A DNA stretch of 64,000 bases from Chitinophagaceae bacterium (GTDB lineage: Bacteria; Bacteroidota; Bacteroidia; Chitinophagales; Chitinophagaceae). Location of the stretch: positions 1 through 64,000 of the forward strand of contig CANCVE010000010.1 in the NCBI GenBank assembly GCA_947381435.1. The letters are read 5' to 3'. A model generated the notes under the pieces. It worked only from the letters and a program-made list of their open reading frames with translations. It made no database searches and was not told the DNA's origin. Of this stretch, positions 8,101 through 57,998 are shown in pieces. How positions within the stretch are numbered: the stretch's first letter is position 1; the number at the start of each line of letters is the position of its first letter. A program made the translations under genes and the position numbers.

Positions 8101-10105
8101 AACTGGCAATGTTCTTACACTTAAATCTACTTCAATTTCAAACACTGCAATAGTTGCTAATGTATGCCCTTCATGCGCCATAACTGGAAAAACAATTGTT
8201 GAACGCTATATTCCTGCTGGTTACCGTGCTTACCGTGACATTGCACCTGAGGTATATAATTCATCTTCTTCTTCAACTAGAAGTATGTACAAAAACTGGC
8301 AAGAAAATGGTTCATTTACCAATGGTACAGGTATATTCATAACCGGTCCAAGTGCAACAGATGCGGTAGCTTCTCATTATACCTCTGGTCAACTAGCTCC
8401 TGATGCAAATGGTTTGGATTATAGCATAAATGGAGTTACATCGGCTTACTCTTATACCAATGGGTCTGGGTATAATGCTGGTTTTAATTCCATTACAAAC
8501 ACTACAACTACAAATCTTGATGCCTTTAGTGGATACAGGGTATTGGTACGTGGGGATAGAAGCTTCAATTTAGCAACAACTCCAATAGTAAATTATTATG
8601 GTATCGGTTTACGTATGGTGAATGCAACAAGGCTTCGTACTACTGGAAACTTGGTTTATGGAACAATTACTTACAATGCAAGTGGAGTTACAGGAGCTGC
8701 TAATGGAGGTGCTGTCAGCTCTACAAATGGATTAACTTCCTCTACAACCAATGGTTTCAGCATGGTAGCAAATCCTTACGTATGTCCTGTTTATTGGGGT
8801 TCATCATCAAATGATCAGGCAACAAGTGTATTCGGATTATCAACCAATATAAATGGTAGTTATTGGTATTTTGACCCAACAGCAGGTTCTACAGGAAAGT
8901 ATGTAGCTTTCAATGCGCTTACTGGTGGTGCCGTTGTATTAGGGTCTACTTATCCTGGTTCATATAATGGTAGCACAACTGGTACAGGTTACATCCAACC
9001 GGGTCAAGCATTCTTTGTACAAAACAGTTCGAGTAGCCCTAGTGTGGTATTTACAGAAGCTTGTAAAGCAACATCACCAACTACACGCTTGACTTCAATC
9101 TTTGGAGCGAATAAACCATTAAGTAAAATTTATCTAGGTCTGAAGAAAGAGGATAGTACAAACGTTTATGTACGTAAGGATGGTGCTGCTATTGCCTTTG
9201 CTGCTGGCTTCACAAATACTACTTATGGACCTCAAGATGCCTTGAAATTTGGTGCTGGAAATGATAACTTATCTATTACTGATAAGGGTAAAAACCTAAG
9301 TATTGATGGTAGATTACCTGCAACCGCAACTGATGTATTGCCAATTGCCTTGAACAAGATGACCGGCAAGAACTATCAATTGGTGATTGATGCAACTACT
9401 TATGATGCAACTGGTTACATTCCTGTATTGAAAGATAACTACAGAGGAACTGTAAAAGAACTTGCTTTAGATGTAAATACTATTAGCTTTACAGTTGATA
9501 CTTCTATCGCAGCTTCTTATGCAAACAGGTTTAGTCTTGGCTTTAAAGTAACAACATTAGCTGTAAATAGCATCGTAGCAAGTGCGACCTTAAACAATAA
9601 GATTGCAACTATCAGTTGGAATACAGTAGGAGAAAAGGGTGTTTCAAGGTTTGAAGTAGAGAAATCTGCTGATGCTAAGAACTTCACTAAGATTGGTCAA
9701 GCAAGTGCTAAGAATACATCAACTGCTAAATACACAACAACAGATAATAGTGTAACAACAACTACTTACTATCGTATTAAAGCAATTAGTGAAGTGGGTA
9801 CAGTAAGCTATAGTAACGTTGCACAGTTAACAGTTAACAGTAAACAGTTTACAGTTTATCCTAATCCATTGGTTGGTAAAACGCTGAATGTAACATTTGG
9901 TACTATTGCTGCTGGTAAATACACAGTGACTATCAATAATGTACTTGGACAAAGAGTACAAGAAGTTGCAATCAGTCATGCTGGTGGAAATGGTAGCCAT
10001 GCGATAACTGTAAACAGTACGTTGGCAAAAGGTACTTATAGTGTAACTATCAGAGAATCTTCAAGTGGAACAATAGTTAATCAATCAAATTTATCTGTTA
10101 ACTAG
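2171..10105 (+). CDS. Giant T9SS-exported multidomain surface protein
   Basis: About 2644 aa. The only in-frame ATG before the hydrophobic core is at 2171. It gives an unusually long signal region (about 35 residues before the core L-F-V-L-L-V-F-S-L-F), with likely cleavage after the A-Q near residue 55. A TTG at 2117 is the alternative. The body is rich in Thr, Ser, Ala, Asn and Gly. A unit of about 160 residues occurs three times (near residues 110-273, 770-927 and 1326-1490) with the signature I-K-S-x-N/S-x-S ... Y-S-T-D-x-T. Fibronectin-III-like segments lie between the copies. Putative-Ig (He_PIG-like) repeats follow near 1500-1666, then a beta-rich region. The end carries a fibronectin-like K-F-E-V-E-K-S segment and a type A T9SS domain beginning V-Y-P-N-P. 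Likely role: adhesion or a cell-surface scaffold; no catalytic motif was seen. Confidence 0.9.
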   Translation: MKKSLTLTVKGIICPKLNFSYHNSRLAEKTKLKNPLSKCLFVLLVFSLFNANLMAQTTTVSATWLGSSQTSTSPTLVGSSTLNSTTTAAPTITGMYNQAYVSGAALKMQRQNATNWWIGDGSTATVNSTFTGIAAAPASNTTTTATTSIDFKIAPATGFNLTVTGLSMSIKSNNSSSVSMTYCLGYSTDGTNFTKISTAASTTSTGATVSNTNDITISTANATLTTSVASQTISVPAGSTLTFRAIMWRKTSSASTSTSMDISNVVINGTTSYLTPTAQPTSAAFTNVGSVGLTANWTNGTGTGTNSLAVVYPHNATPTTPSGTYTANTVYGSGSAIGTGLNTGYVVYNGTSNTVSVTGLTANTSYDVYVYSFNGTSTYYTTSPLVMNQSTTVASINDPSAFTASAASTSSISLSSTANATPDNVMIAVNTTNVFGTPTGTYSVSNSISGGGTVVYNGTAGSATFSTSTTPNTIYYFKAWSVSGSTYSSGILANATTLPNAPTITAVSTFASTSLSANWTAPTSQGSEAFTYTVEASTDNTFATGVVSNTSIASSNLTSSVTSLTPQTLYYFRVKAVNAGGSSAYSSTVSAYTTSSAPTSRGANFYVIEKTTTSFALEFGNASNFPATNAVKSGYLVLYSTGTPAVIASPNGLAPASVISNGTQIAVTEATLPAVPTATGVTVNSLTAGSTYNVIIVPYTWDGVNTATYNYLATSPLSASVTLKSAVAIWDMNATNQGTPLTIGNVNATAPAFTTYGYRAYSDANFLQTSYGSSAGSWNADGSSTTTNATFTGVSGTVTDTRYIDFTISPQSGSTLSVTNIVVPIKSNNSSSASHVYSLAYSTDGTNFTKFSNTTLSTITATGSTISGSDVKISTANSVITTSYNSTPITVSAGKTLTLRAILWRGTTSSSSNTTMDFQPMYISGSTSVVAPTAQVTGLSSNGIADQSFGLSWTKASDASNTLVVVYPTGASPVAPSNISYTATGTYSTGSTLGTGKVLYNGSASSCSVSGVSATTTYDVYVYEFNTDGSSYQYYTTSPATVNVTTTAAASPQPTNYPTAFAAGTKTSTSITLNWTDAIGAQLPENYLVVLSTSAITDPTDGVALSDGTVSGVIYKNVAYGAQTTTITGLSAQTNYNIAIYPYTNAGTAIDYKTDGTNPAFTAYTYTTAPTAQPYTFDVVPASSSSINLNWVGTTGAGGYLLVRSTSSNPIVSGYTNGIAPSSQTLGSGVSLVTDITSGSTTSYPNTALTLSTKYYYTLVPYTWDGSHAATYNYLVASALSGSATVVNAISTYSFTSTGTPTNTTGIVATTPTFTGYTSPSYSNGLIVSPDGAGNWTSDGASSTTSTAYTGVANTPSSAATTVTTRHIDFTVAPAAGYNLSISQITIPIKSSSAFNSINYSLAYSTDNTTWTRVSSSALSTISSAGSLITNTYDIQVNTPGSTVTTTFVPSSPISIANANTLYVRVIIWSKATVTRASTTAVLGTVVFAGTATALPTPAITSSLTDNASVGIADSYTITASNGPIVSYSASGYPSFMTFDSNTGIFTVSASSTQGTYPINIAANNGSSTGTATLVYTVNSSTTPAITSLLTSSAIVGQPYSYQIAATNSPTSYSASGLPSGLSINTSNGMISGTPLTSGATNVTITATNSTASASKTLVITTTAATYYYYGGTGALDNYSNWYASNGSSSASAVAASSSSVFTQSSTTFEIRSNASTSSNSGTWTVSGSGSKVIVGNSSITGKTLTIASGKSIVATIDVAASASGTNTLLLQDATLPTFGTINSGSTIEYGASVAQTITNITYGNLTISNTSATGATTANATSSSIPVATVSGTLTVSSGGTLTFTSNATYTTKITVASSIIINGSVNFPGANTIYFDGAANLFVNSGATLYIGSSNGIGATSNGCIRTTGATRYYDPNNVSYVFQNTSATSVSTGVGFPSTAANVTVNVTAASAVLTLSQALDITGKLTVNAGTLATGNVLTLKSTSISNTAIVANVCPSCAITGKTIVERYIPAGYRAYRDIAPEVYNSSSSSTRSMYKNWQENGSFTNGTGIFITGPSATDAVASHYTSGQLAPDANGLDYSINGVTSAYSYTNGSGYNAGFNSITNTTTTNLDAFSGYRVLVRGDRSFNLATTPIVNYYGIGLRMVNATRLRTTGNLVYGTITYNASGVTGAANGGAVSSTNGLTSSTTNGFSMVANPYVCPVYWGSSSNDQATSVFGLSTNINGSYWYFDPTAGSTGKYVAFNALTGGAVVLGSTYPGSYNGSTTGTGYIQPGQAFFVQNSSSSPSVVFTEACKATSPTTRLTSIFGANKPLSKIYLGLKKEDSTNVYVRKDGAAIAFAAGFTNTTYGPQDALKFGAGNDNLSITDKGKNLSIDGRLPATATDVLPIALNKMTGKNYQLVIDATTYDATGYIPVLKDNYRGTVKELALDVNTISFTVDTSIAASYANRFSLGFKVTTLAVNSIVASATLNNKIATISWNTVGEKGVSRFEVEKSADAKNFTKIGQASAKNTSTAKYTTTDNSVTTTTYYRIKAISEVGTVSYSNVAQLTVNSKQFTVYPNPLVGKTLNVTFGTIAAGKYTVTINNVLGQRVQEVAISHAGGNGSHAITVNSTLAKGTYSVTIRESSSGTIVNQSNLSVN

Positions 10106-10110
10106 TTTTA

Positions 10111-10166
10111 AGTTATTAGTGGTTAGTTGTTAGTACTAACCACTAATAACTAATCACTTACAACTA
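10111..10166. repeat. Heptamer-word palindrome H1 (TTAGTGG vocabulary)
   Basis: Five nt after the adhesin stop. A perfect 17-bp inverted repeat, arm AGTTATTAGTGGTTAGT at 10111-10127 and its complement at 10135-10151, with a 7-nt loop. Both arms are strings of 7-nt words (GTTATTA, GTGGTTA, GTTGTTA) and inverted words continue to 10166. It may act as an mRNA 3' end or terminator, though no clean T-run follows. Confidence 0.85.
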
Positions 10167-16187: not shown

Positions 16188-16350
16188 TGTCACGTGTTCC
16201 CAATTTTCGGGAACACGTGACAGAACTTTGGGAACATGTTCCAGAAACGCGGGAACACGTTCCTGAAAGTTGGGAACACGTTCCGTAACTATGGGAACCT
16301 GTTCCCAAAACATTGGAACATGTGACAGAAAGTTGGGAACACGTGACAGA
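16188..16350. repeat. 21-nt tandem array C, palindromic units (about 8)
   Basis: Seven clear units start with GGGAAC at 16209 and recur every 21 nt (16230, 16251, 16272, 16293, 16314 with TGGAAC, 16335); an earlier partly inverted unit lies at 16188. Many units hold a near-palindrome such as GGAACACGTTCC, others GGAACACGTGAC. The array is open in two minus-strand frames, giving heptad-repeat spurious peptides (x-V-P-x-x-x-x), a simple result of the 21-nt period. It sits 80 nt 5' of the 221-aa gene. Confidence 0.9.
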
Positions 16351-16492
16351 TTCAAGAAATTAATCCAAAAAGAGAAGATTCTACTGGCCGTAAGCAAACG
16401 TGCCTTCTAGATTTTACAACTAGAAGGCACGCTGAATATTTACGTAGATTGATTGTAGTTATCCTAATCTTTCTTCAATCAAAAAACAAAAA

Positions 16493-17962: not shown

Positions 17963-17992
17963 TTTTGTATATTTTAATGCTGATTAAAAAAT

Positions 17993-18072
17993 TGTTGTTA
18001 GTGGTTAGTTATTAGTGGTTAGCGATTAAATTGTATTTCAAACAACTAATAACTAAACACTAACAACTAACT
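17993..18072. repeat. Heptamer-word palindrome H3 (TTAGTGG vocabulary)
   Basis: Left arm of about 25 nt (GTTGTTAGTGGTTAGTTATT core, 17994-18018) pairs with the right arm near 18042-18070 at about 23 of 25 positions; both are built of 7-nt words (GTTGTTA, GTGGTTA, GTTATTA). It shares vocabulary with H1 and overlaps the lipoprotein stop at 18072. Confidence 0.85.
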
Positions 18073-29122: not shown

Positions 29123-29201
29123 ATATCTATTGTAAAAATGGTTTTAAGTAAGTTTTTTTAGTAGGTTACGTTTAATAAATACCTCTCAATTTTAGGAACT
29201 A

Positions 29202-29327
29202 GACTGGAAGGTTTTGCGACGAAACTGGAAAGTTTTGCGATGAGACTGAAAGGTTTTACGATGAAACTAAAAGGTTTTACGATGAAACCGGAAGGTTTTG
29301 CGATGGGACTGAAAGGTTTCACGGGAA
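29202..29327. repeat. 21-nt tandem array D (6 units)
   Basis: Six exact 21-nt units start at 29202, 29223, 29244, 29265, 29286 and 29307; the core is GGTTTTGCGATGA, preceded by AACTGGAA or GACTGAAA. No indels. It lies 79 nt after the hydrolase stop and 105 nt before the first sulfatase start. The minus strand is open through it and would give a heptad peptide with A/V-K-P-F/S-S; that is a by-product of the period. Confidence 0.92.
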
Positions 29328-29431
29328 GAATAGCACAATCCTTCGCGTAAGACAACATTTTTTTGAATAAATTTTTGAATAATAAACAAACGGCTCTCAC
29401 ATTAAAAAACAGTTTTAATTAAACTAGAAGT

Positions 29432-31048
29432 ATGAAAAAGTGGATTTGCTTACCGGCATTAGTATTTTTAATTCCTAATGCAAAATCTTTTGCACAGCAA
29501 GAGAAAAAACCGAACATTCTATTTATTGCAGTAGATGATTTGAAACCAATATTGGGTTGCTTTGGCGACAAATTGGTGAAAACGCCAAACATTGACCGAT
29601 TGGCTAAAATGGGTACTGCTTTTCAGAGCAATTATGTTCAGCAGGCAGTATGTGGACCAACAAGGGCTAGTTTGATGACGGGTAAAAGACCTGATTACAC
29701 CAAAGTTTGGGATTTAAAAACCCAAATGAGAGACATGAACCCCGACATCGTTACGCTTCCTCAGTATCTTATTACCCAAGGATACCAAACAATTGGTATT
29801 GGTAAGATATTTCACCCAAGTGATGCTTTAAAAAAGATTGATCCTGTGTCTTGGAGTCTGCCTTATATGTTTACAAAGGACGAAGATTTTGCTAATGGAT
29901 TAGGCAAGCCTGCTAATGAACAATATCAGTTGGCTTCTACCAAAGAATATTTTGCAACGCATGAAAAAGTAAAGAAAGGTGATGAACCTAAAAAGAAAAA
30001 AGGGCAGGATGATAATGATGAAGGTTCTGGCAGTAGAAAAGGCCCATCAACTGAGTGTATTGATGTACCTGATGGTGCTTATGAAGATGGTGCAAATGCA
30101 TTGCTTGCTAAAGCTAAGTTGGATGAATTGGTTGCTTCTAAAAAACCATTCTTCTTTGCAGTAGGCTATCATAAACCACACCTTCCGTTTGTGGCGCCAA
30201 AAAAATATTGGGATATGTACGACAGAGACAAAATGCCTTTGGCTGAGTTTCAAGAACACTCTAAGGATGGTCCTTTAGTAGCTTATACTTCTGCTGGTGA
30301 GTTAAGAAACTACACTGATATTCCTCCTTTTGTAACGATGGAAGCAGAATTGAACCGAATTGGTTTGAAACCAGAAAAACAAAAAGAATTGATTCAGGGC
30401 TATTATGCTGCCGTATCTTACTTAGACCATAATGTGGGTGTATTGTTGGATGAATTAGAAAAACTAGGTCAATTAAACAATACCATCATTGTTTTCTGGG
30501 GCGATCATGGTTGGCATTTGGGCGATCATGACCTTTGGTGCAAACACACCAACTTCGAAAACGCTACAAGAGCACCATTGATTATTGCGGCTCCTGGTTT
30601 GAAAGGTGGTGCTACTAAATCATTAACAGAACACATTGATATTTTCCCTACAGTTTGCGATTTAGCCGGCGTTCCTGTTCCTACTTATTTGGATGGAAAA
30701 AGTTTGGTGCCAATTATGAAGGATAAGAAAGCAAAAGTTCAGGAATATTCTATCAGCCAATACCCTCGTGGTGTGAAGAAAGAAGAAATGGAGCGTTTGG
30801 GTTATGAATCTAAAAAATTGATGGGCTATAGTTTACGAACTGATAAATATAGATTCACTATTTGGATGAATGATTTTACTAGCAAAGCTCCTTTTGATGC
30901 TAAAAAAGTTTATGCCAAAGAAATGTACGACTACGTAAAAGATCCTTTGGAAAAAGTAAACGTGGCTGATGCAAAAGAATATGCTAGTGTTTATAAAGAC
31001 ATGTATGGCAAGATGCTTGATTTCTTTGCTTCTCAAGTAAATAAATAA
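29432..31048 (+). CDS. Exported S1-family sulfatase, iduronate-2-sulfatase-like
   Basis: 538 aa. Signal peptide at residues 1-21 (ends F-A-Q). The N-terminal metal site F-I-A-V-D-D-L-K-P and the formylglycine motif C-G-P-T-R (Cys near residue 73, family C-x-P-x-R) are intact. F-A-V-G-Y-H-K-P-H-L-P-F and W-G-D-H-G-W-H-L-G-D-H are the usual iduronate-2-sulfatase-type signatures. A Lys-rich acidic insertion (K-K-K-G-Q-D-D-N-D-E-G-S) lies near residue 185. It would need the FGly-generating enzyme, not in this window. About half its residues look shared with the sulfatase at 34391. A terminator follows. Confidence 0.92.
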   Translation: MKKWICLPALVFLIPNAKSFAQQEKKPNILFIAVDDLKPILGCFGDKLVKTPNIDRLAKMGTAFQSNYVQQAVCGPTRASLMTGKRPDYTKVWDLKTQMRDMNPDIVTLPQYLITQGYQTIGIGKIFHPSDALKKIDPVSWSLPYMFTKDEDFANGLGKPANEQYQLASTKEYFATHEKVKKGDEPKKKKGQDDNDEGSGSRKGPSTECIDVPDGAYEDGANALLAKAKLDELVASKKPFFFAVGYHKPHLPFVAPKKYWDMYDRDKMPLAEFQEHSKDGPLVAYTSAGELRNYTDIPPFVTMEAELNRIGLKPEKQKELIQGYYAAVSYLDHNVGVLLDELEKLGQLNNTIIVFWGDHGWHLGDHDLWCKHTNFENATRAPLIIAAPGLKGGATKSLTEHIDIFPTVCDLAGVPVPTYLDGKSLVPIMKDKKAKVQEYSISQYPRGVKKEEMERLGYESKKLMGYSLRTDKYRFTIWMNDFTSKAPFDAKKVYAKEMYDYVKDPLEKVNVADAKEYASVYKDMYGKMLDFFASQVNK

Positions 31049-34210: not shown

Positions 34211-34247
34211 ACGGCTGGATTTGGCAGATAAATATCTATAACCGAGG

Positions 34248-34363
34248 CCTCGGATGCGACATCCGGTACCTCGGATGCGACAAAAGATACTTCGGATGGG
34301 ACAAAAGATACCTCGGATGCGACAGAAGATACCTCGGATGCGACAAAGGATACCTTGGATGCA
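34248..34363. repeat. 21-nt tandem array E (5 full units and a partial)
   Basis: Units start at 34248, 34269, 34290, 34311 and 34332 with a sixth partial at 34353; the core is CCTCGGATGCGACA, followed by a variable 7-8 nt. The flank CCGAGGCCTCGG at 34243-34254 is a perfect 12-nt palindrome. It begins 37 nt after the beta-helix stop and ends 28 nt before the second sulfatase start. Confidence 0.92.
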
Positions 34364-34390
34364 AGATTTTAAAAGTAAAATATAGATAAA

Positions 34391-36004
34391 ATGAAGATGA
34401 AACGGTTGTTGGTTATTGCAATGGGTATGGTTGTTTCGGCAAATACTATTGCGCAGGAACAGAAAAAGCCCAATGTGCTGTTCATTGCCATCGATGATTT
34501 GAAACCTATTTTGGGTTGCTATGGCGATAAAATAATTAAGACCCCAAACATTGACCGATTGGCAAAAATGGGGACTGTTTTTATGAGTAATTATTGTCAG
34601 CAAGCCGTTTGTGGACCTACTCGTGCAAGTTTGATGACGGGCAAAAGGCCAGATTATACTAAGGTTTGGGATTTGCAAACACCTATGCGCAACGTTAATC
34701 CAGATATTTTGAGCTTGCCTCAATACCTCATTACGCAAGGATATTCTACGCAGGGAATAGGAAAGATTTATGATTCGAGAGACGTGGATAAGGATTTGGA
34801 TAAGCCATCTTGGAGCGTACCCTACTATAAAAATGCAGATGATTATTACGACAAACAAACAGGATTGCCTGTAAATGTGGAATATCAAGCAGCAGAATCT
34901 AAAAAACAAGCGGCTAAGTTTACAGCCGAAGCAGAAGCAAAAGGGCTGAAAGGAAAGGAGTTGAAGCAATATATTAACGAACGAGTACGCCCCACTACCG
35001 AATGTTTGGATTTGCCAGATAATGCCTACGAAGACGGCGCAAACGCTTTGAAGGCAAAAGAAGTGCTGATTAATTTGAGCAAAACACCTACGCAGCCTTT
35101 CTTTTTTGCAGTAGGTTTTCATAAGCCACATCTTCCTTTTGTATCGCCTAAAAAATATTGGGATTTGTACAATCGGGAAGAAATGCCAGTGGCAAAGTTT
35201 CAGGAGAAATCGAAGAACGGAGTAGATATTGCCTATCATAGTGCTTCGGAAATGAGGCTATACACCGATATTCCTGAACTACTTTCTTTCACCGATCAAA
35301 AGCCTTTTGGTATTTCTTTGCCTTTGGCGAAACAAAAAGAATTGATTCATGGCTATTATGCAGCCGTTTCTTACACTGATGCGCAAGTTGGAATCTTATT
35401 GAATACATTAGATTCTTTAGGGCTAACTAAAAACACCGTAATAGTTCTTTGGGGCGATCATGGATGGCATTTGGGCGACCATAATTTGTGGTGCAAACAC
35501 ACCAACTTTGAGCAAGCAACGCATTCGCCTTTGATAGTTGCTGCACCGGGTTATAAAGAAGGAAGTTCTATTTCGATGTCAGAACATGTTGATATTTTCC
35601 CTACCGTTTGCGAATTGGCAGGGGTAAAAATACCAGAAGTGGTGGATGGCAAAAGCTTGGTACCAATTATGAAAAATAAGAAAGCGAAGGTTATTGAATA
35701 TTCGGTAAGCCAATATCCTAGAAGTAACCCAAAAATGGAAACTGGCAGATTGGGTTATGATAAAGCAGAATATATGGGTTATTCGATCAGAGATAATAGG
35801 TATCGGTTTACCATTTGGATGGATAAAGGGTTTAGAAGTACACAGCCTTTTAAAAAGGAATTGGTGATTGGAACAGAATTGTATGACTATAAAGTAGATC
35901 CTCTAGAAACGACAAATGTTTACAAGGATGCAAAATATGCGGCCATCTCGAAAGAATTGGAAGGCAAAATGATTAATTATTTTAAAACTCACGAAACAAA
36001 ATAG
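34391..36004 (+). CDS. Exported S1-family sulfatase, paralogue of the first
   Basis: 537 aa. Signal peptide at residues 1-21 (ends I-A-Q). It has F-I-A-I-D-D-L-K-P, C-G-P-T-R (Cys near residue 72), F-A-V-G-F-H-K-P-H-L-P-F and W-G-D-H-G-W-H-L-G-D-H. It follows the first sulfatase closely over most of its length and is likely a local duplication that diverged, perhaps for a different sulfate position. Residues 160-200 are Ala/Lys/Glu-rich instead of the acidic insert in the first copy. It ends 3 nt before DUF1961. Confidence 0.92.
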   Translation: MKMKRLLVIAMGMVVSANTIAQEQKKPNVLFIAIDDLKPILGCYGDKIIKTPNIDRLAKMGTVFMSNYCQQAVCGPTRASLMTGKRPDYTKVWDLQTPMRNVNPDILSLPQYLITQGYSTQGIGKIYDSRDVDKDLDKPSWSVPYYKNADDYYDKQTGLPVNVEYQAAESKKQAAKFTAEAEAKGLKGKELKQYINERVRPTTECLDLPDNAYEDGANALKAKEVLINLSKTPTQPFFFAVGFHKPHLPFVSPKKYWDLYNREEMPVAKFQEKSKNGVDIAYHSASEMRLYTDIPELLSFTDQKPFGISLPLAKQKELIHGYYAAVSYTDAQVGILLNTLDSLGLTKNTVIVLWGDHGWHLGDHNLWCKHTNFEQATHSPLIVAAPGYKEGSSISMSEHVDIFPTVCELAGVKIPEVVDGKSLVPIMKNKKAKVIEYSVSQYPRSNPKMETGRLGYDKAEYMGYSIRDNRYRFTIWMDKGFRSTQPFKKELVIGTELYDYKVDPLETTNVYKDAKYAAISKELEGKMINYFKTHETK

Positions 36005-36007
36005 AAG

Positions 36008-36721
36008 ATGAAAAGAATACTTATTTGGACGGCGTTATTATTTACCACCTCGGCATTTGCACAGGAAGTAACCAAAGGAAAATTGGTGTACTCTAACAAA
36101 ATGTCGAGCGAAAAAGACCTGAAAGGTTGGGCACTAGAGGGAAAAGCCAATGTGGAATTTAAGGATGGATGGATGCACATGTACTCTCCAAACGAGGAAA
36201 GTCACCATGTATATTGGTGCCCGAAAGATTTTCCTGCCAATTTTATTGCTGAATGGGATGCACAGAATTATAAAATAGATGCGGGCTTATGCATCATTTT
36301 CTTTTGTGCAAAGGGATTGCATGGAGAAGACATTTTCGATTCATCGATGCCAAAAAGAACCACAGGCGATTTTGAAGATTACATACGTGGTGCCATGAAT
36401 TGTTACCATGTTTCCTATTATGCAAATGGTAGAGATCATCCGGGAAGATTGATTGCCAACTTGCGGAAGAATGCAGGTTTTCATTTGATAGAATCAAGCG
36501 AACCGGGTATTCCAATTAGCTACACGGGTGTGAATCATTTAAAAATAATTAAGAATGGCGCATCAGTTAAGATGTTTGTGGATGGAAGAAAAATAATTGA
36601 TTGGGTGGATGATGGCAAAAAATACGGACCAATACTAGGCGAAGGAAAAATTGGTTTTAGGCAGATGCAATGGACACACTTTGCCTACAGAAACTTTAAG
36701 GTTTGGGAAATAGCTAAGTAA
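36008..36721 (+). CDS. Exported DUF1961-family protein
   Basis: 237 aa. Signal peptide at residues 1-18 (ends A-F-A-Q). The body is a concanavalin-like beta sandwich as judged by family: Y-S-N-K-M-S-S-E-K-D-L, then H-V-S-Y-Y-A-N-G-R-D-H-P-G-R and N-L-R-K-N-A-G-F, which are the family's strong signatures as I recall them. DUF1961 proteins often lie in polysaccharide loci with sulfatases and lyases. Its activity is not established to my knowledge. It is coupled to the sulfatase (3-nt gap). Confidence 0.8.
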   Translation: MKRILIWTALLFTTSAFAQEVTKGKLVYSNKMSSEKDLKGWALEGKANVEFKDGWMHMYSPNEESHHVYWCPKDFPANFIAEWDAQNYKIDAGLCIIFFCAKGLHGEDIFDSSMPKRTTGDFEDYIRGAMNCYHVSYYANGRDHPGRLIANLRKNAGFHLIESSEPGIPISYTGVNHLKIIKNGASVKMFVDGRKIIDWVDDGKKYGPILGEGKIGFRQMQWTHFAYRNFKVWEIAK

Positions 36722-36848
36722 GTTGAAAGTCGTAAGTGAAAAGTTGAAAGTCGAAAGTCGTAAGTCGTAAGTTGTAAGTCAGAAGTTAGAAAGGCATTAT
36801 ATTTTTGACCCTTAACTTTCGAATTATTACTTTCAACTTACTAAGAGA
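36722..36848. repeat. Heptamer-word palindrome H6 (GTCGAAA/GTCGTAA vocabulary)
   Basis: Starts at the base after the DUF1961 stop. Ten consecutive 7-nt words (GTTGAAA, GTCGTAA, GTGAAAA and variants, ending GTTAGAA) run 36723-36792 without an indel. After a 28-nt spacer, inverted words follow near 36819-36843. The same vocabulary occurs inside hemC. Confidence 0.9.
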
Positions 36849-44716: not shown

Positions 44717-44793
44717 CGTATTTATTTCTCTCAAAATTATAGGTAATTCCAGAAAAATGGAACATTATGTTTCTTGTTTTCCTCAACCTGTCG

Positions 44794-44999
44794 CTTTCTG
44801 ACCTCCCGTGAACAGAATTATACTCAGAAAGCTACCGTCTAGCTTGCCACGAACAAAATTGTTCTCAGACGGTCGCCGTCTGAGCTGCTGTGGACACAAT
44901 TATACTCAGACGGCCGCCGTCTGGGCTGCCGGGAACAGAATTATGCTTAGACGGCCGCCGTCTGGGCTGCCGCGGACACAATTGTACCCAGACGGCGGA
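44794..44999. repeat. Array F: inverted 42-nt units (21-nt half units), GC-rich
   Basis: The GAACA/GACACA anchor recurs at 44810, 44851, 44893, 44933 and 44975, spacings 41, 42, 40 and 42 nt. Each unit has a palindromic centre such as AGACGGCCGCCGTCT, so halves of about 21 nt alternate in orientation. It is much more GC-rich than its flanks. The array separates divergent genes, about 78 nt from hicB and 60 nt from the GHL10 gene. Confidence 0.9.
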
Positions 45000-45059
45000 C
45001 TTTTTAGCACAACATGACCTAAATTCCTTATTTTAACTGCCCTTGCTTACCTTCGCCAC

Positions 45060-49393: not shown

Positions 49394-49411
49394 GTGCAAA
49401 CTAAAGGTATT

Positions 49412-51755: not shown

Positions 51756-51813
51756 TGTATCTATTTAGATTAAAAATGTCTATTAAAATTGTCATAGTTT
51801 CTTAGTAAGTGCT

Positions 51814-52002
51814 CTATTTCATTGTGGAACTAATTTATTCCCTTAGGGAACTAATCTATTTCCTTGTGTAACCAATCTATTTCCATATAGAACCAATTTA
51901 TTTCCTTATTGAACTAATCTATTTACTTATTGAACTAATCTATTTCCTTATTGAACTAATCTATTTCCTTATTGAACCAATCCATTTCCTTATTGATTTA
52001 TT
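51814..52002. repeat. 21-nt tandem array G (9 units) inside the hem operon
   Basis: Nine indel-free units from 51814 in steps of 21; the core is CTATTTCCTTATTGAAC followed by TAAT or CAAT. The later units (6-8) are nearly identical, the first three more diverged, which suggests growth at one end. It occupies the hemF-hemB gap, 6 nt past the hemF stop and 59 nt before the hemB start. Confidence 0.95.
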
Positions 52003-52008
52003 GGTCTT

Positions 52009-52941
52009 TTAACCTAAAAAATCCCTAGGATTCAAACAGGCCTGCAACAATTTATCTTCTTCGCTACCAGTAATCGGTTGATAATTGTATTCAAAACGAA
52101 CTGTTGGCGGTAAGCTCATCAAGATACTTTCAATCCTTCCATTAGTACGTAATCCAAATAAAGTACCTCTGTCATGCACTAAATTAAACTCAGTATATCT
52201 GCCACGGCGTATTTCCTGCCAATGTTTCTGCGCTGCAGTGTAAGGAATATTCTTTCTTTTAGATACGATAGGAATGTATGCTTCTGTAAATTCATTGCCA
52301 CAAGCTTGACCAAAACTCATCCAGAAATTAACATCGTTAGTCTCTGATGGACGCTGATAATCGTAGAAAATGCCACCAATTCCCCTGCGCTCATTATTAC
52401 GATGAAAGTTTACAAAGTAATCATCACAATGCTTTTTAAAGGAAGGATAAAAGGTTTCATCAAACTCGTCGCACACATTTTTATAAGTTTGGTGAAAATG
52501 AATTGCATCCTCATCAAACAAATAATAAGGCGTTAAATCGGTACCACCACCAAACCAACGGTCAATAACCTCCCCGTTCTCGTTGTATAGCTCAAACATC
52601 CGATAATTGCAATGGACCGTAGGCACAAAAGGATTGATGGGATGTAAAACAAGGCTCAACCCGCAAGCAAACCAAGACAATTCCTTATCAATAACCTGAG
52701 CCGGAAGTTTCAATTGATTGCGCATGGCATCGGTAACTACTCCCTCAACAGCCGAAGTATTAACACCACCTTTTTCAAACACATTGCCATTGGCAATAAC
52801 CCTAGTCTTGCCACCACCACCTTCTGGACGAACCCATACATCTTCTACAAAAGTGGCTTTGCCATCCTCTGCTTCAAGTGCAGCACAGATATTATCCTGC
52901 AAAGAGTGTATATAGTTTATCCATTGTTGTTTGATGCTCAT
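52009..52941 (-). CDS. hemF: Oxygen-dependent coproporphyrinogen III oxidase
   Basis: 310 aa from the ATG at 52941 (M-S-I-K-Q-Q-W), the start that clears the upstream nuclease stop; ATGs at 52956 and 52968 would overlap it. The family motifs are complete: W-V-R-P-E-G-G-G-G-K-T-R, W-F-G-G-G-T-D-L-T-P-Y-Y and R-R-G-I-G-G-I-F-Y-D-Y. It uses O2, so heme synthesis here is suited to aerobic life; a hemN is not in this window. Confidence 0.96.
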   Translation of the reverse strand: MSIKQQWINYIHSLQDNICAALEAEDGKATFVEDVWVRPEGGGGKTRVIANGNVFEKGGVNTSAVEGVVTDAMRNQLKLPAQVIDKELSWFACGLSLVLHPINPFVPTVHCNYRMFELYNENGEVIDRWFGGGTDLTPYYLFDEDAIHFHQTYKNVCDEFDETFYPSFKKHCDDYFVNFHRNNERRGIGGIFYDYQRPSETNDVNFWMSFGQACGNEFTEAYIPIVSKRKNIPYTAAQKHWQEIRRGRYTEFNLVHDRGTLFGLRTNGRIESILMSLPPTVRFEYNYQPITGSEEDKLLQACLNPRDFLG

Positions 52942-55787: not shown

Positions 55788-56729
55788 TTATGATTTCTGT
55801 ATGGTATCAATGATGGCTTGTCCGCCTTGTTCTAATAGAGACTTGGCAGCTAATACACCACCATTATCCGCATCCTCAAAAGAGATCATCTGCTCTACCT
55901 CCGCCTTTGCCGAACCATCTATTGCCACCACATTACCTCTAAAATGTATAGCACCATCTTTCACTTCGGCCAATGCACTAATTGGCGTAGAGCATCCACC
56001 CAATAATACCCTAAGAAAATCTCTTTCTATTTTAGTACAGATAGCTGTATCATTATCATTAAAATGCTGGCAAGCATCAAAACTAAAAGTATCTCCATCA
56101 CGGCTTACTACCATTATTGCCCCTTGTGCAGGTGCAGGCAGCATCCAATCTAAATCAACACTGTTTTCAGGACGAAGATTAATTCGTTCCAATCCGGCAG
56201 CCGCAAATATTGCCCCATGCCAGTTACTTTCTGCTACTTTACGAAGACGTGTATTTACATTACCCCTCAAATTCTCTATTGTATGATTCGGGTAGCGATG
56301 CAACCATTGTGCCTTACGACGTATGCTGCTAGTACCAATAACTAGTTGAGAGTCGAAAGTCGAAAGTTGTAAGTCATCCATCTCTCGACTTTCAACTTTC
56401 GACTTACGACTAACTAATATGTCCTTATAGCTTGCTCTTTTCAACACAGCACTTTGTATTATTCCTTTGGGTAGTTGTGTTGGTACATCTTTCATCGAAT
56501 GAACTGCTATATCTATTCTATCATTCAGTAAAGCCAAATCTAGGCTTCGGGTAAACACACCCTGAACACCCATTTCGTAGAGTGGTGTAACCAAATCTAT
56601 ATCGCCCTCGCTCTTTATGTAAACTAATTCAGCAGCATAACCATTCTCTTTCAAAAGGTTTTGTACAAGCGTTGCTTGCCAAACAGCCAACTGACTTTCG
56701 CGTGTGCCAATACGTATAACTCTTTCCAT
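55788..56729 (-). CDS. hemC: Hydroxymethylbilane synthase with a palindrome-encoded insert
   Basis: 313 aa. R-I-G-T-R-E-S-Q-L-A-V-W-Q-A, H-S-M-K-D-V-P and the dipyrromethane Cys in L-G-G-C-S-T-P-I-S-A are normal. Residues 105-128 (from V-S-R-K-S-K-V-E to F-D-S-Q-L) are encoded by a heptamer-word hairpin at 56346-56416. The same stretch between the conserved A/F-V strand and V-I-G-T-S-S-I-R-R is about 15 residues in E. coli HemC, here about 23. The insertion is in frame and at a surface loop region, so the enzyme is probably active. 15 nt before hemD. Confidence 0.95.
   Translation of the reverse strand: MERVIRIGTRESQLAVWQATLVQNLLKENGYAAELVYIKSEGDIDLVTPLYEMGVQGVFTRSLDLALLNDRIDIAVHSMKDVPTQLPKGIIQSAVLKRASYKDILVSRKSKVESREMDDLQLSTFDSQLVIGTSSIRRKAQWLHRYPNHTIENLRGNVNTRLRKVAESNWHGAIFAAAGLERINLRPENSVDLDWMLPAPAQGAIMVVSRDGDTFSFDACQHFNDNDTAICTKIERDFLRVLLGGCSTPISALAEVKDGAIHFRGNVVAIDGSAKAEVEQMISFEDADNGGVLAAKSLLEQGGQAIIDTIQKS
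56346..56416. repeat. Heptamer-word palindrome H11 inside hemC
   Basis: Forward words GTCGAAA, GTCGAAA, GTTGTAA, GTC at 56352-56375, a 10-nt loop-side segment, then inverted words (CGACTTT, CAACTTT, CGACTTA, CGACTAA) to 56416. The arms pair at about 22 of 24 positions. The vocabulary is that of H6. The reading frame of hemC stays open through both arms. Confidence 0.9.
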
Positions 56730-56768
56730 AATTATTGCTGTTAGTCTCCCTTTAGGGACGGAAGGGTG

Positions 56769-57998
56769 CTAGTTAGCACTGATTGCTATAAACTCATTAA
56801 TAGCTTCTATATAGTTGCATCCACCCTTATTTTCCTTGCGCATGTTTTGCGCCATGTTGTTAATCACTTTCTGTATGCGGGTATTACAATCACAATTGTT
56901 TGTTGTGTGATGGCTATTAGAGTAGCTGATGAACATATCACATTCTTGCATAGCAATCAACTTGCTTTTCACAGCTTTAATTACAGGCACATTCTTGCGC
57001 ATGGCATGCCACTCACTAAATTCGGCAATATGTTCTGCAATAATTGCTTTTGCTTTAGGCACTTCATCAATCCTCATTTGGAGGGTGGCATCATTTATTT
57101 TAGATAAATCATCCACATTTACCAAGGTAATATGTGCCAATTCTTTACAAGTGGGGTTGATATTGTTAGGTATAGATAGATCAATCAAAACCTTACTGTT
57201 GCTATTTGCAAATTGCTCTTTATTAAGGATTGGAGAAGACGCATTAGTAGCTACAATTATTACATCGGCTGCTTTTATTTCATGTTCAATCAATTCATAA
57301 GAACCTACCCTAAGGTTTAGTTCATCAGCCAATTCCTTTGCCTTATCTTCTGTACGATTAATAAGTGTAATGTTGGTATTATTTAAATAATCAACCACAT
57401 TCTTGCAGGTGTTCCTTCCTATCTTGCCAGTACCGAGTAACAATATTTTCTTATCGCTGATGTTTTCTACGTTGTCTTTTAGAAATTGAATAGCTGCAAA
57501 GGAAACCGAAACGGTACCACCACTAAGCTGTGTATTATTCTTGATACTTTTTGATGCTTGGATAACAGAATTTACTAAGCGTTCCATATATCCACCAATG
57601 GAGCCATGTTCTTTTGCAAACTTGAAAGACTGTTTTATCTGACCAATAATCTCATAGTCGCCCAATATTTGAGAATCTAATCCTGCACCAACAGAAAATA
57701 GGTGTTCAATTGCTTCTTTCCCTTTTTTAATGTAGGCTAATTGTTTAAAGGTTTCTTTGCTGCCCGTTGTTTTAGCACATAAAAGGTTTATCAATGCTTT
57801 CGAACTGGTGGCCAAACCATAAATTTCGGTTCTGTTGCAAGTACTAATTACCATTACTTCAGCAATACCTGCTTGCTTGGCATCTGCTATCAATGCACTG
57901 TATTGTTCTGTGCCAATAGCGAATTGTCCCCTGATTGATGCTTCAGTTTTCTTGTAATTTATGCCTGCCGCGTAAAATTGTAGTTCCTGCATATTCAA
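56769..57998 (-). CDS. hemA: Glutamyl-tRNA reductase
   Basis: 409 aa. First committed enzyme of C5 heme synthesis. The catalytic Cys is C54 in S-T-C-N-R-T-E-I-Y; F-S-V-G-A-G-L-D-S-Q-I-L-G-D-Y-E-I-I-G-Q and the NADPH-site G-T-G-K-I-G-R-N follow; I-D-L-S-I-P-N-N-I-N is present. First gene of the hem operon. 39 nt separate it from hemC. Confidence 0.97.
   Translation of the reverse strand: MNMQELQFYAAGINYKKTEASIRGQFAIGTEQYSALIADAKQAGIAEVMVISTCNRTEIYGLATSSKALINLLCAKTTGSKETFKQLAYIKKGKEAIEHLFSVGAGLDSQILGDYEIIGQIKQSFKFAKEHGSIGGYMERLVNSVIQASKSIKNNTQLSGGTVSVSFAAIQFLKDNVENISDKKILLLGTGKIGRNTCKNVVDYLNNTNITLINRTEDKAKELADELNLRVGSYELIEHEIKAADVIIVATNASSPILNKEQFANSNSKVLIDLSIPNNINPTCKELAHITLVNVDDLSKINDATLQMRIDEVPKAKAIIAEHIAEFSEWHAMRKNVPVIKAVKSKLIAMQECDMFISYSNSHHTTNNCDCNTRIQKVINNMAQNMRKENKGGCNYIEAINEFIAISAN

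Follow-up and report, generated by a model that had tools for sequence, protein, structure and literature searches.

A loop of hydroxymethylbilane synthase that appears to have been refilled by unrelated palindromic repeats within a genus of Chitinophagaceae

Introduction

Small palindromes that enter protein genes are known from Rickettsia and from some REP-rich genomes. The DNA analysed here, a stretch of 64,000 nt (the window) from a genome of the Chitinophagaceae (G000; G001-G012 include its congeners), carries such a palindrome in frame within hemC, and raises the question of how a repeat comes to reside in the gene of a conserved enzyme and what becomes of it there. In this case a single loop of the enzyme holds four unrelated palindromes within one genus, with further arrays in other genera, two named strains among them. 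We argue, with a probability of about two in three, for a tolerant loop that was repeatedly filled by lineage-specific palindromic repeats, later rewritten in place by template switching.

Results and discussion

A palindrome of 7-nt units in the hemC frame

The hemC gene (55788-56729, minus strand), identified by ORF call and by its profile match (TIGR00212, 282.8 bits against a cut-off of 164), is open over 313 aa and encodes hydroxymethylbilane synthase. Upstream of it lies a called ORF (56769-57998, minus strand) that we take, from its sequence and position, to be hemA. Residues 107-130 of HemC (SRKSKVESREMDDLQLSTFDSQLV; 56340-56411, minus strand), preceded by KDILV and followed by IGTSSIRR, constitute what we call the slot. 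It is occupied by a palindromic element (56344-56416) composed of imperfect 7-mers of the AGTCGAA type (AGTCGAA, AGTCGTA, AGTTGAA), and this 7-nt period is the one that characterizes heptameric repeats. The arms of its inverted repeat, at 56351-56375 (left in plus-strand order) and 56387-56411 (right), are 25 nt long, 92% complementary and 11 nt apart, and outer pairs extend the span to the limits of the element. RNA of the coding strand folds into a hairpin at -35 kcal/mol, a value never reached by 200 shuffles, which give -16.4 +/- 2.7 (z -6.85), and the ORF is open, which bears out the in-frame hairpin that the initial annotation had seen within hemC.

Both periodicity and pairing are peculiar to this place in the gene. 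The lag-7 identity of the window's slot is 0.66, whereas the highest value among 868 segments of 75 nt taken elsewhere in 30 hemC genes is 0.38, a value exceeded by nine of the 30 slots. Similarly, a hairpin score of at least 12 is reached in 6/30 slots versus 1/868 of the segments elsewhere.

The loop before GTSSIRR counts 24 residues in the window's HemC and 16 in short-loop genera; the distance between anchors is 84 nt versus 60 nt in short-loop relatives, that is eight additional residues, and alignment to E. coli HemC gives nine extra residues. The lengthening by about eight residues with conservation of the frame, as first described, is therefore correct. The event was not a simple lengthening, as the native loop residues are unrecognisable in the slot of the window's genus and the slot seems to have received new contents repeatedly.

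Residues D81, R137, R138 and C246, which correspond to catalytic and cofactor residues, are invariant across the 30-sequence HemC alignment, and for that reason the enzyme looks functional. An AlphaFold2 model built from 30 sequences has a mean pLDDT of 88, with values below 50 at residues 43-46, 48-55 and, within the slot, 111-121. Low pLDDT is what a disordered loop would give. The slot loop, which the initial annotation had proposed to place by modelling, is thus probably disordered, and the insert has the look of a passenger tolerated at the protein surface.

Unrelated hairpins at the same position in congeners

Of 99 genomes, 65 (counting G000) have a HemC match; the congeners G002 and G003 have none, and 30 loci were used for comparison. 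By its residue pattern the slot could be recognised in 63 of 110 HemC loci, the 47 others being mostly from Flavobacteriaceae but including L097, of the Chitinophagaceae. Outside the slot, hemC of G005 is 95.6% identical to that of the window; five congeners show 80-84% DNA identity, two about 70%, G011 66% and G008 63%.

In seven genomes of the genus the slot contains a hairpin, with z from -3.5 (G006) to -9.6, and these hairpins belong to four unrelated types. The AGTCGAA type is found in G000 and G005, GTGAGTA in G006 and G010, AGTGGTT in G009, and a palindrome with CCCCATCCCCTAAAGGGG, hereafter the CCCC type, in G001 and G007; this last type lacks the 7-nt unit structure. The G006 hairpin is the weakest (detector score 9). 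No stop codon interrupts the slot in any of the seven. If the segment had been native sequence, close relatives could have shared it without the palindromic DNA; instead the palindrome of G005 differs from that of the window by a single change, and five other congeners carry unrelated hairpins, so that alignment of relatives reveals, as had been anticipated, another sequence or another length at the slot.

These types do not follow the phylogeny. In a hemC tree calculated without the slot, G009/G007 (100/99) and G001/G010 (99/99) are sister pairs, and the slot type differs within each of them. Counted by hand, this tree requires four or more changes of type. One spot inside a protein gene thus appears to have been refilled several times. 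According to the model that we favour, whichever family was spreading in a lineage would have contributed a copy that entered the loop in frame, with loss of the native residues, and later copies of other families would have replaced earlier ones, leaving unrelated hairpins in sister species.

All seven members of one clade have a hairpin, and its sequence is of four unrelated kinds; this calls to mind another explanation, in which the hairpin itself would be selected: as mRNA (or DNA) it would aid expression of haem genes, its sequence would be irrelevant, and mobile palindromes would resupply it. This we regard as unlikely. In G004 and G012 the slot has a 7-nt array but no strong hairpin, and in G008, G011 and most of the other genera represented in the 30 loci it has neither hairpin nor array. 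A kindred proposal, that selection keeps a hairpin midway along the hemC message and that mobile palindromes were repeatedly recruited for this purpose, seems to us slightly less likely again; if true, such a slot would be a control of haem synthesis without conserved sequence.

Arrays extend beyond the genus. A period of 7 significant against codon shuffles (p<=0.003) was detected in the slots of L011 and L012, from other genera of the family, and at the same threshold in the named records L031, L033, L035, L037 (Flavisolibacter longurius) and L039 (Cnuella takakiae), the last two species being both Chitinophagaceae. The C. takakiae slot reaches 55 residues, with a fold of -48 kcal/mol. By eye, L037 and L039 keep the start of the native loop, the array coming after it, which looks like insertion. 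A stop was seen in one hemC of another genus (G047). Hairpins also occupy the gap between hemC and the upstream ORF (56730-56768 in the window; L158, L160, L163 and L166), one type being common to G010 and G001 and another to G009 and G007; no hairpin was found in the window's own gap.

Repeat families and the content of the slot

The initial annotation had noted the same vocabulary in an intergenic element, H6. We confirm this kinship: related AGTCGAA-type sequence covers 36714-36845, with the same words at 36721-36795, and identity to the hemC element is 88% over 33 nt near 36720. Two further palindromes of 7-nt units, of the TTAGTGG type, lie outside called ORFs at 10103-10166 and 17985-18070. 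That the repeat is dispersed holds at the scale of the genome, with at least 63 matching pieces in G000 at E<=0.001. This count includes both strands of a palindrome as well as the query, and 40 of 121 candidate stretches were scored. We found at least 60 pieces in G005, two in G010, one in G006 and none in G001, G007, G009, G011 and G012. Among these nine genomes of the genus (G002, G003, G004 and G008 were outside the search), the family is amplified only in G000 and G005, precisely the two that carry it in hemC.

By contrast, the description of the hemC copy as recently mobile is not supported in that form. The copy is not fresh, since it is shared with G005 and its best matches elsewhere in G000 are 78% identical over about 72 nt. 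From the sequences, the recent event looks rather to be the amplification of the AGTCGAA family in the G000/G005 lineage.

The other families show diverse distributions. AGTGGTT counts at least 73 pieces in G009, at least 34-57 in G000, G001, G005, G007 and G010, and one in G006 (40 of 67-121 candidates were scored for this family and for AGTCGAA in G000 and G005); being about as numerous in five other congeners, it fails to single out G009. GTGAGTA is most numerous in G010 (15 pieces), followed by G007 (6), G005 (2), G006 and G009 (1 each), with none in G000 and G001; at E<=0.001, G006 has no copy beyond that in hemC. The CCCC palindrome is weakly repeated (0-7 pieces per genome). The CAGTTATC family comprises at least 114 pieces in G000, 30 in G010, 20 in G003, 4 in G005, 1 in G001 and none in G006, G007 and G009. 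The 7-nt slot types therefore belong to families numerous in the same genome, most clearly for AGTCGAA. G006 departs from this rule, and AGTGGTT is plentiful in most of the genus.

AGTCGAA-type palindromes of equal score were also noticed less than 420 nt from a contig end in three contigs of G000, C202 (L112), C184 (L113) and C35 (L114); some copies of the family may thus break the assembly.

These counts bear on the possibility that ready-made slots travelled between species by homologous recombination of hemC alleles, new insertions being few. G006 and G010 share a slot type and a nearly identical right flank (92% there versus about 80% around), and in G001 and G007 the CCCC slots have a common stretch outside the palindrome. 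For the G006/G010 pair we accept that the slot may stem from interspecies recombination, in view of this local similarity and of the lack of any other GTGAGTA copy in G006. Yet G006 and G001, whose types differ, are also 88% alike in that flank; the similarity of G001 and G007 (79-85%) does not rise next to the slot; and no likely AGTCGAA donor exists among the seven other congeners searched, in which the family is absent or rare. Moreover, the types must first arise somewhere. As a general explanation, allele exchange is thus quite improbable.

Intergenic elements: position and change

In 653 kb of G000 we detected 121 hairpins, 46 of them with a lag-7 identity of at least 0.6. Called ORFs make up 0.83 of this DNA, and only 6/121 hairpins, and 2/46 of the 7-nt ones, are well inside ORFs. 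The detector, which finds the hemC element, gave no hit in 206 kb shuffled in 60-nt blocks. Two of the six intra-ORF cases were accepted, hemC and the FAD enzyme described below, and the four others rejected: the ORFs at L111, L114:7926-8357 and L140 are short or periodic and look spurious, and the L145 hairpin is near the called start of its ORF. As the G000 stretches had been picked for AGTCGAA copies, plus five contig starts, we turn to the less biased G005 loci L191-L250, where 21 7-nt hairpins occur in 1.17 Mb, one of them in an ORF. There, a gene 3' end is at most 13 nt away in 20 of 23 distances (median 3 nt), and gene starts are at a median of 14.5 nt (16 distances), the elements being near starts as well because the gaps are short. 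ORFs were called mechanically, and their ends are not independent of the elements, in which called ORFs tend to terminate owing to stop codons in the repeat words. Divergent gaps, which represent 27-28% of intergenic DNA and 18-20% of gaps, hold 3/45 elements in G000 and 2/40 in G005. Proximity to gene 3' ends is also what transcribed structures would display, and to this extent it speaks for a selected hairpin. Short palindromes made up of imperfect 7-nt units are present by the dozen in genomes of the genus, in several sequence families whose size depends strongly on the species; most lie just 3' of genes, seldom within them. In the model of a repeatedly filled loop, the HemC loop between KDILV and IGTSSIRR would tolerate them.

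To follow individual elements, 25 hairpins of G000 (of 112 with usable flanks, 121 in total) could be placed in the part of G005 that the comparison covered. Fourteen of these, hemC and the FAD slot included, have a lag-7 identity of at least 0.55 and were sorted by eye: six are near-identical, four belong to the same family but are rearranged, two face other repeat-like sequence without a strong hairpin (L149:6103, L117:2685), and two face no such element (L122:15676, L137:14682). Since intergenic slots differ between the two genomes too, in-place replacement is not special to hemC. In one pair (L128:9923 and L181) an arm differs by exactly 14 nt, or two units. No clean empty site with target duplication was encountered among these 25, nor among 17 G005 hairpins placed in G000 (of 192 usable, 199 in total). 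As regards MITEs, the inverted repeats are present, and the 25 placed slots offer no clean occupied/empty pair in which a duplication could be read.

RAYT proteins were considered as movers of these palindromes. G000 has seven Y1_Tnp matches, and no 7-nt palindrome reaches the cut-off in the seven loci (2-3.2 kb); one hairpin near a Y1 gene (L283) has a lag-7 identity of 0.53, just below it. Three of the seven loci end within 360 nt of the gene at a contig end, their flanks being incomplete. In the stretches covered, Y1 flanks contain no excess of 7-nt elements and the idea is not supported. A one-armed CAGTT-type 7-nt array was noticed about 340 nt from a Y1 transposase gene (L284:821-964, contig C142 of G000); one array in 17.6 kb corresponds to background level, 0.09 per kb being expected from the G000 stretches.

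A second slot and rewriting in place

A second in-frame 7-nt slot resides in the gene of a FAD-binding enzyme (P0001; L114:6345-7991, G000 contig C35), a protein that passes no NCBIfam cut-off among the matches listed. Seven genomes of the genus, G000 included, have there an ACCGTT-type 7-nt array. In five of them the array folds into a significant hairpin; G002 shows weak pairing and G010 none. The sequence at this place is unrelated in G009 and G007, and the loop is shorter in the other genera compared. No stop occurs in the hemC or FAD genes of element-carrying congeners; one FAD gene of another genus (G034) has a stop.

The weak pairing in G002 and its absence in G010 again argue against a selected hairpin, and so does covariation, which for seven sequences and 29 pairs is not above shuffles (28/500 for pairs formed, and 137-382/500 for the other four measures). 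The notion of a selected RNA proven by covariation was consequently dropped.

What the FAD slot does display is inversion of its loop. The hairpin loops of G003 and G000 match in inverted orientation at 15/18 positions, with scores of 15 inverted and 2 direct, and direct alignment of the two never rises above half identity. G005 has the orientation of G000, G006 and G010 that of G003, and G001 and G002 no clear orientation. Because G000, G003 and G005 branch as a trichotomy, the change is unpolarised.

At L136:4429-4564, G000 has an almost perfect palindrome of 136 nt, and its counterpart in G005 is a different palindrome, of 79 nt. Between these two the loop is also inverted (score 12 inverted versus 1 direct). 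In all, 3/19 pairs of G000/G005 slots scored as inverted, among which window position 49411 and L141:8958 were set aside as short terminator-like hairpins. In the hemC slot itself, the inner GTGAGTA loop of G006 against G010 scores 8.0 inverted versus 3.5 direct (whole slot, 53/70 and 56/75), which is suggestive only.

According to two reports (PMC8604942, PMC8794818), loop inversion together with arm copying are marks of template switching, in coding DNA as well. In 88 7-nt elements the arms mirror each other in unit order (0.91, versus 0.81 with units shuffled), a supporting evidence only, as the elements were chosen as hairpins. We propose that resident hairpins change largely by template switching during replication, through copying of arms, inversion of loops and the addition or removal of entire units. 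The peptide that they encode would be a passenger, presumably without function, in a disordered surface loop.

The same features could be read as the signature of an origin in situ, by slippage and fold-back copying of native sequence without any mobility, family likeness being convergence. The heterogeneous 7-nt units, the mirrored arms, the exact two-unit difference between L128 and L181 and the inverted loops would all agree with it. Convergence would not, however, put an AGTCGAA slot just where the AGTCGAA family has been amplified, and family size can differ between sisters, as CAGTTATC does in G000 and G005. Origin in situ is accordingly very unlikely, and we retain template switching as a process acting on palindromes that would have arrived by insertion, as the family data suggest.

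Comparison with known systems

Rickettsia palindromic elements (RPE), with which the initial annotation had compared the hemC element, are 105-146 bp long, have 12-bp terminal repeats and lie in frame inside conserved protein genes, where they are apparently tolerated (PMC2229807). The likeness holds for behaviour: here too, dispersed palindromes occur within and between genes, in frame in hemC and the FAD enzyme, and are apparently tolerated. It does not extend to length, as the hemC element, of about 73 bp, is a single hairpin with 25-nt arms. In addition, unrelated palindromes succeed each other in one hemC slot, and the phylum is another one. The hemC element would thus work like an RPE by analogy of behaviour.

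REPs bear a GTAG or CGTC tag at the base of their palindrome. They are placed near gene 3' ends, are rare in divergent gaps and are sometimes intragenic, and the nearest precedent encountered for re-use of a slot is recB, where Xanthomonas campestris and X. oryzae have different REPs at about the same site (PMC3733652). The elements described here have the same placement, close 3' of genes, rare in divergent gaps and in some cases intragenic. They differ from the REP/RAYT pair in their 7-nt unit and in that the Y1 genes of G000 are not flanked by them in the stretches covered.

The heptameric repeats of Xanthomonas and Nostoc consist of imperfect 7-nt units spread genome-wide, enriched in non-coding DNA and arranged as G-rich direct arrays (PMC4692102). 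Imperfect 7-nt units, genome-wide presence and enrichment in non-coding DNA are common to both systems; here, in contrast, the arms are mirrored into palindromes and there are many families.

Template switching at inverted repeats has been described in yeast and in RNA genes (PMC8604942, PMC8794818). Arm homogenisation and loop inversion are the shared traits, whereas the present substrates are dispersed palindromes inside bacterial enzyme genes. Among the matches listed from the open-licence literature, no title concerns a hemC palindrome or 7-nt palindromes in Chitinophagaceae.

With four unrelated palindromes in one genus and further arrays in other genera, the hemC slot is a natural experiment on the movement of repeats, on whether they aim at existing palindromes, on rewriting of coding DNA by template switching and on the tolerance of a protein loop. 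One short PCR product, obtained from a large number of strains, would suffice to read all of this.

Other repeats in the window

Besides the 7-nt elements, the window contains five 21-nt tandem arrays, each with its own sequence (951-1101, 16196-16363, 29182-29344, 34227-34382 and 51794-52024). At one place in G001 and G005 (L161:12061, L153), arrays of the 21-nt type have different but similar units. Two blocks (29480-30672 and 34439-35625), 73-78% alike and spaced by about 4955 nt, possibly represent a duplicated gene. Finally, at 44777-45012, four copies spaced by 41 nt share a GACGGCCGCCGTC core able to pair.
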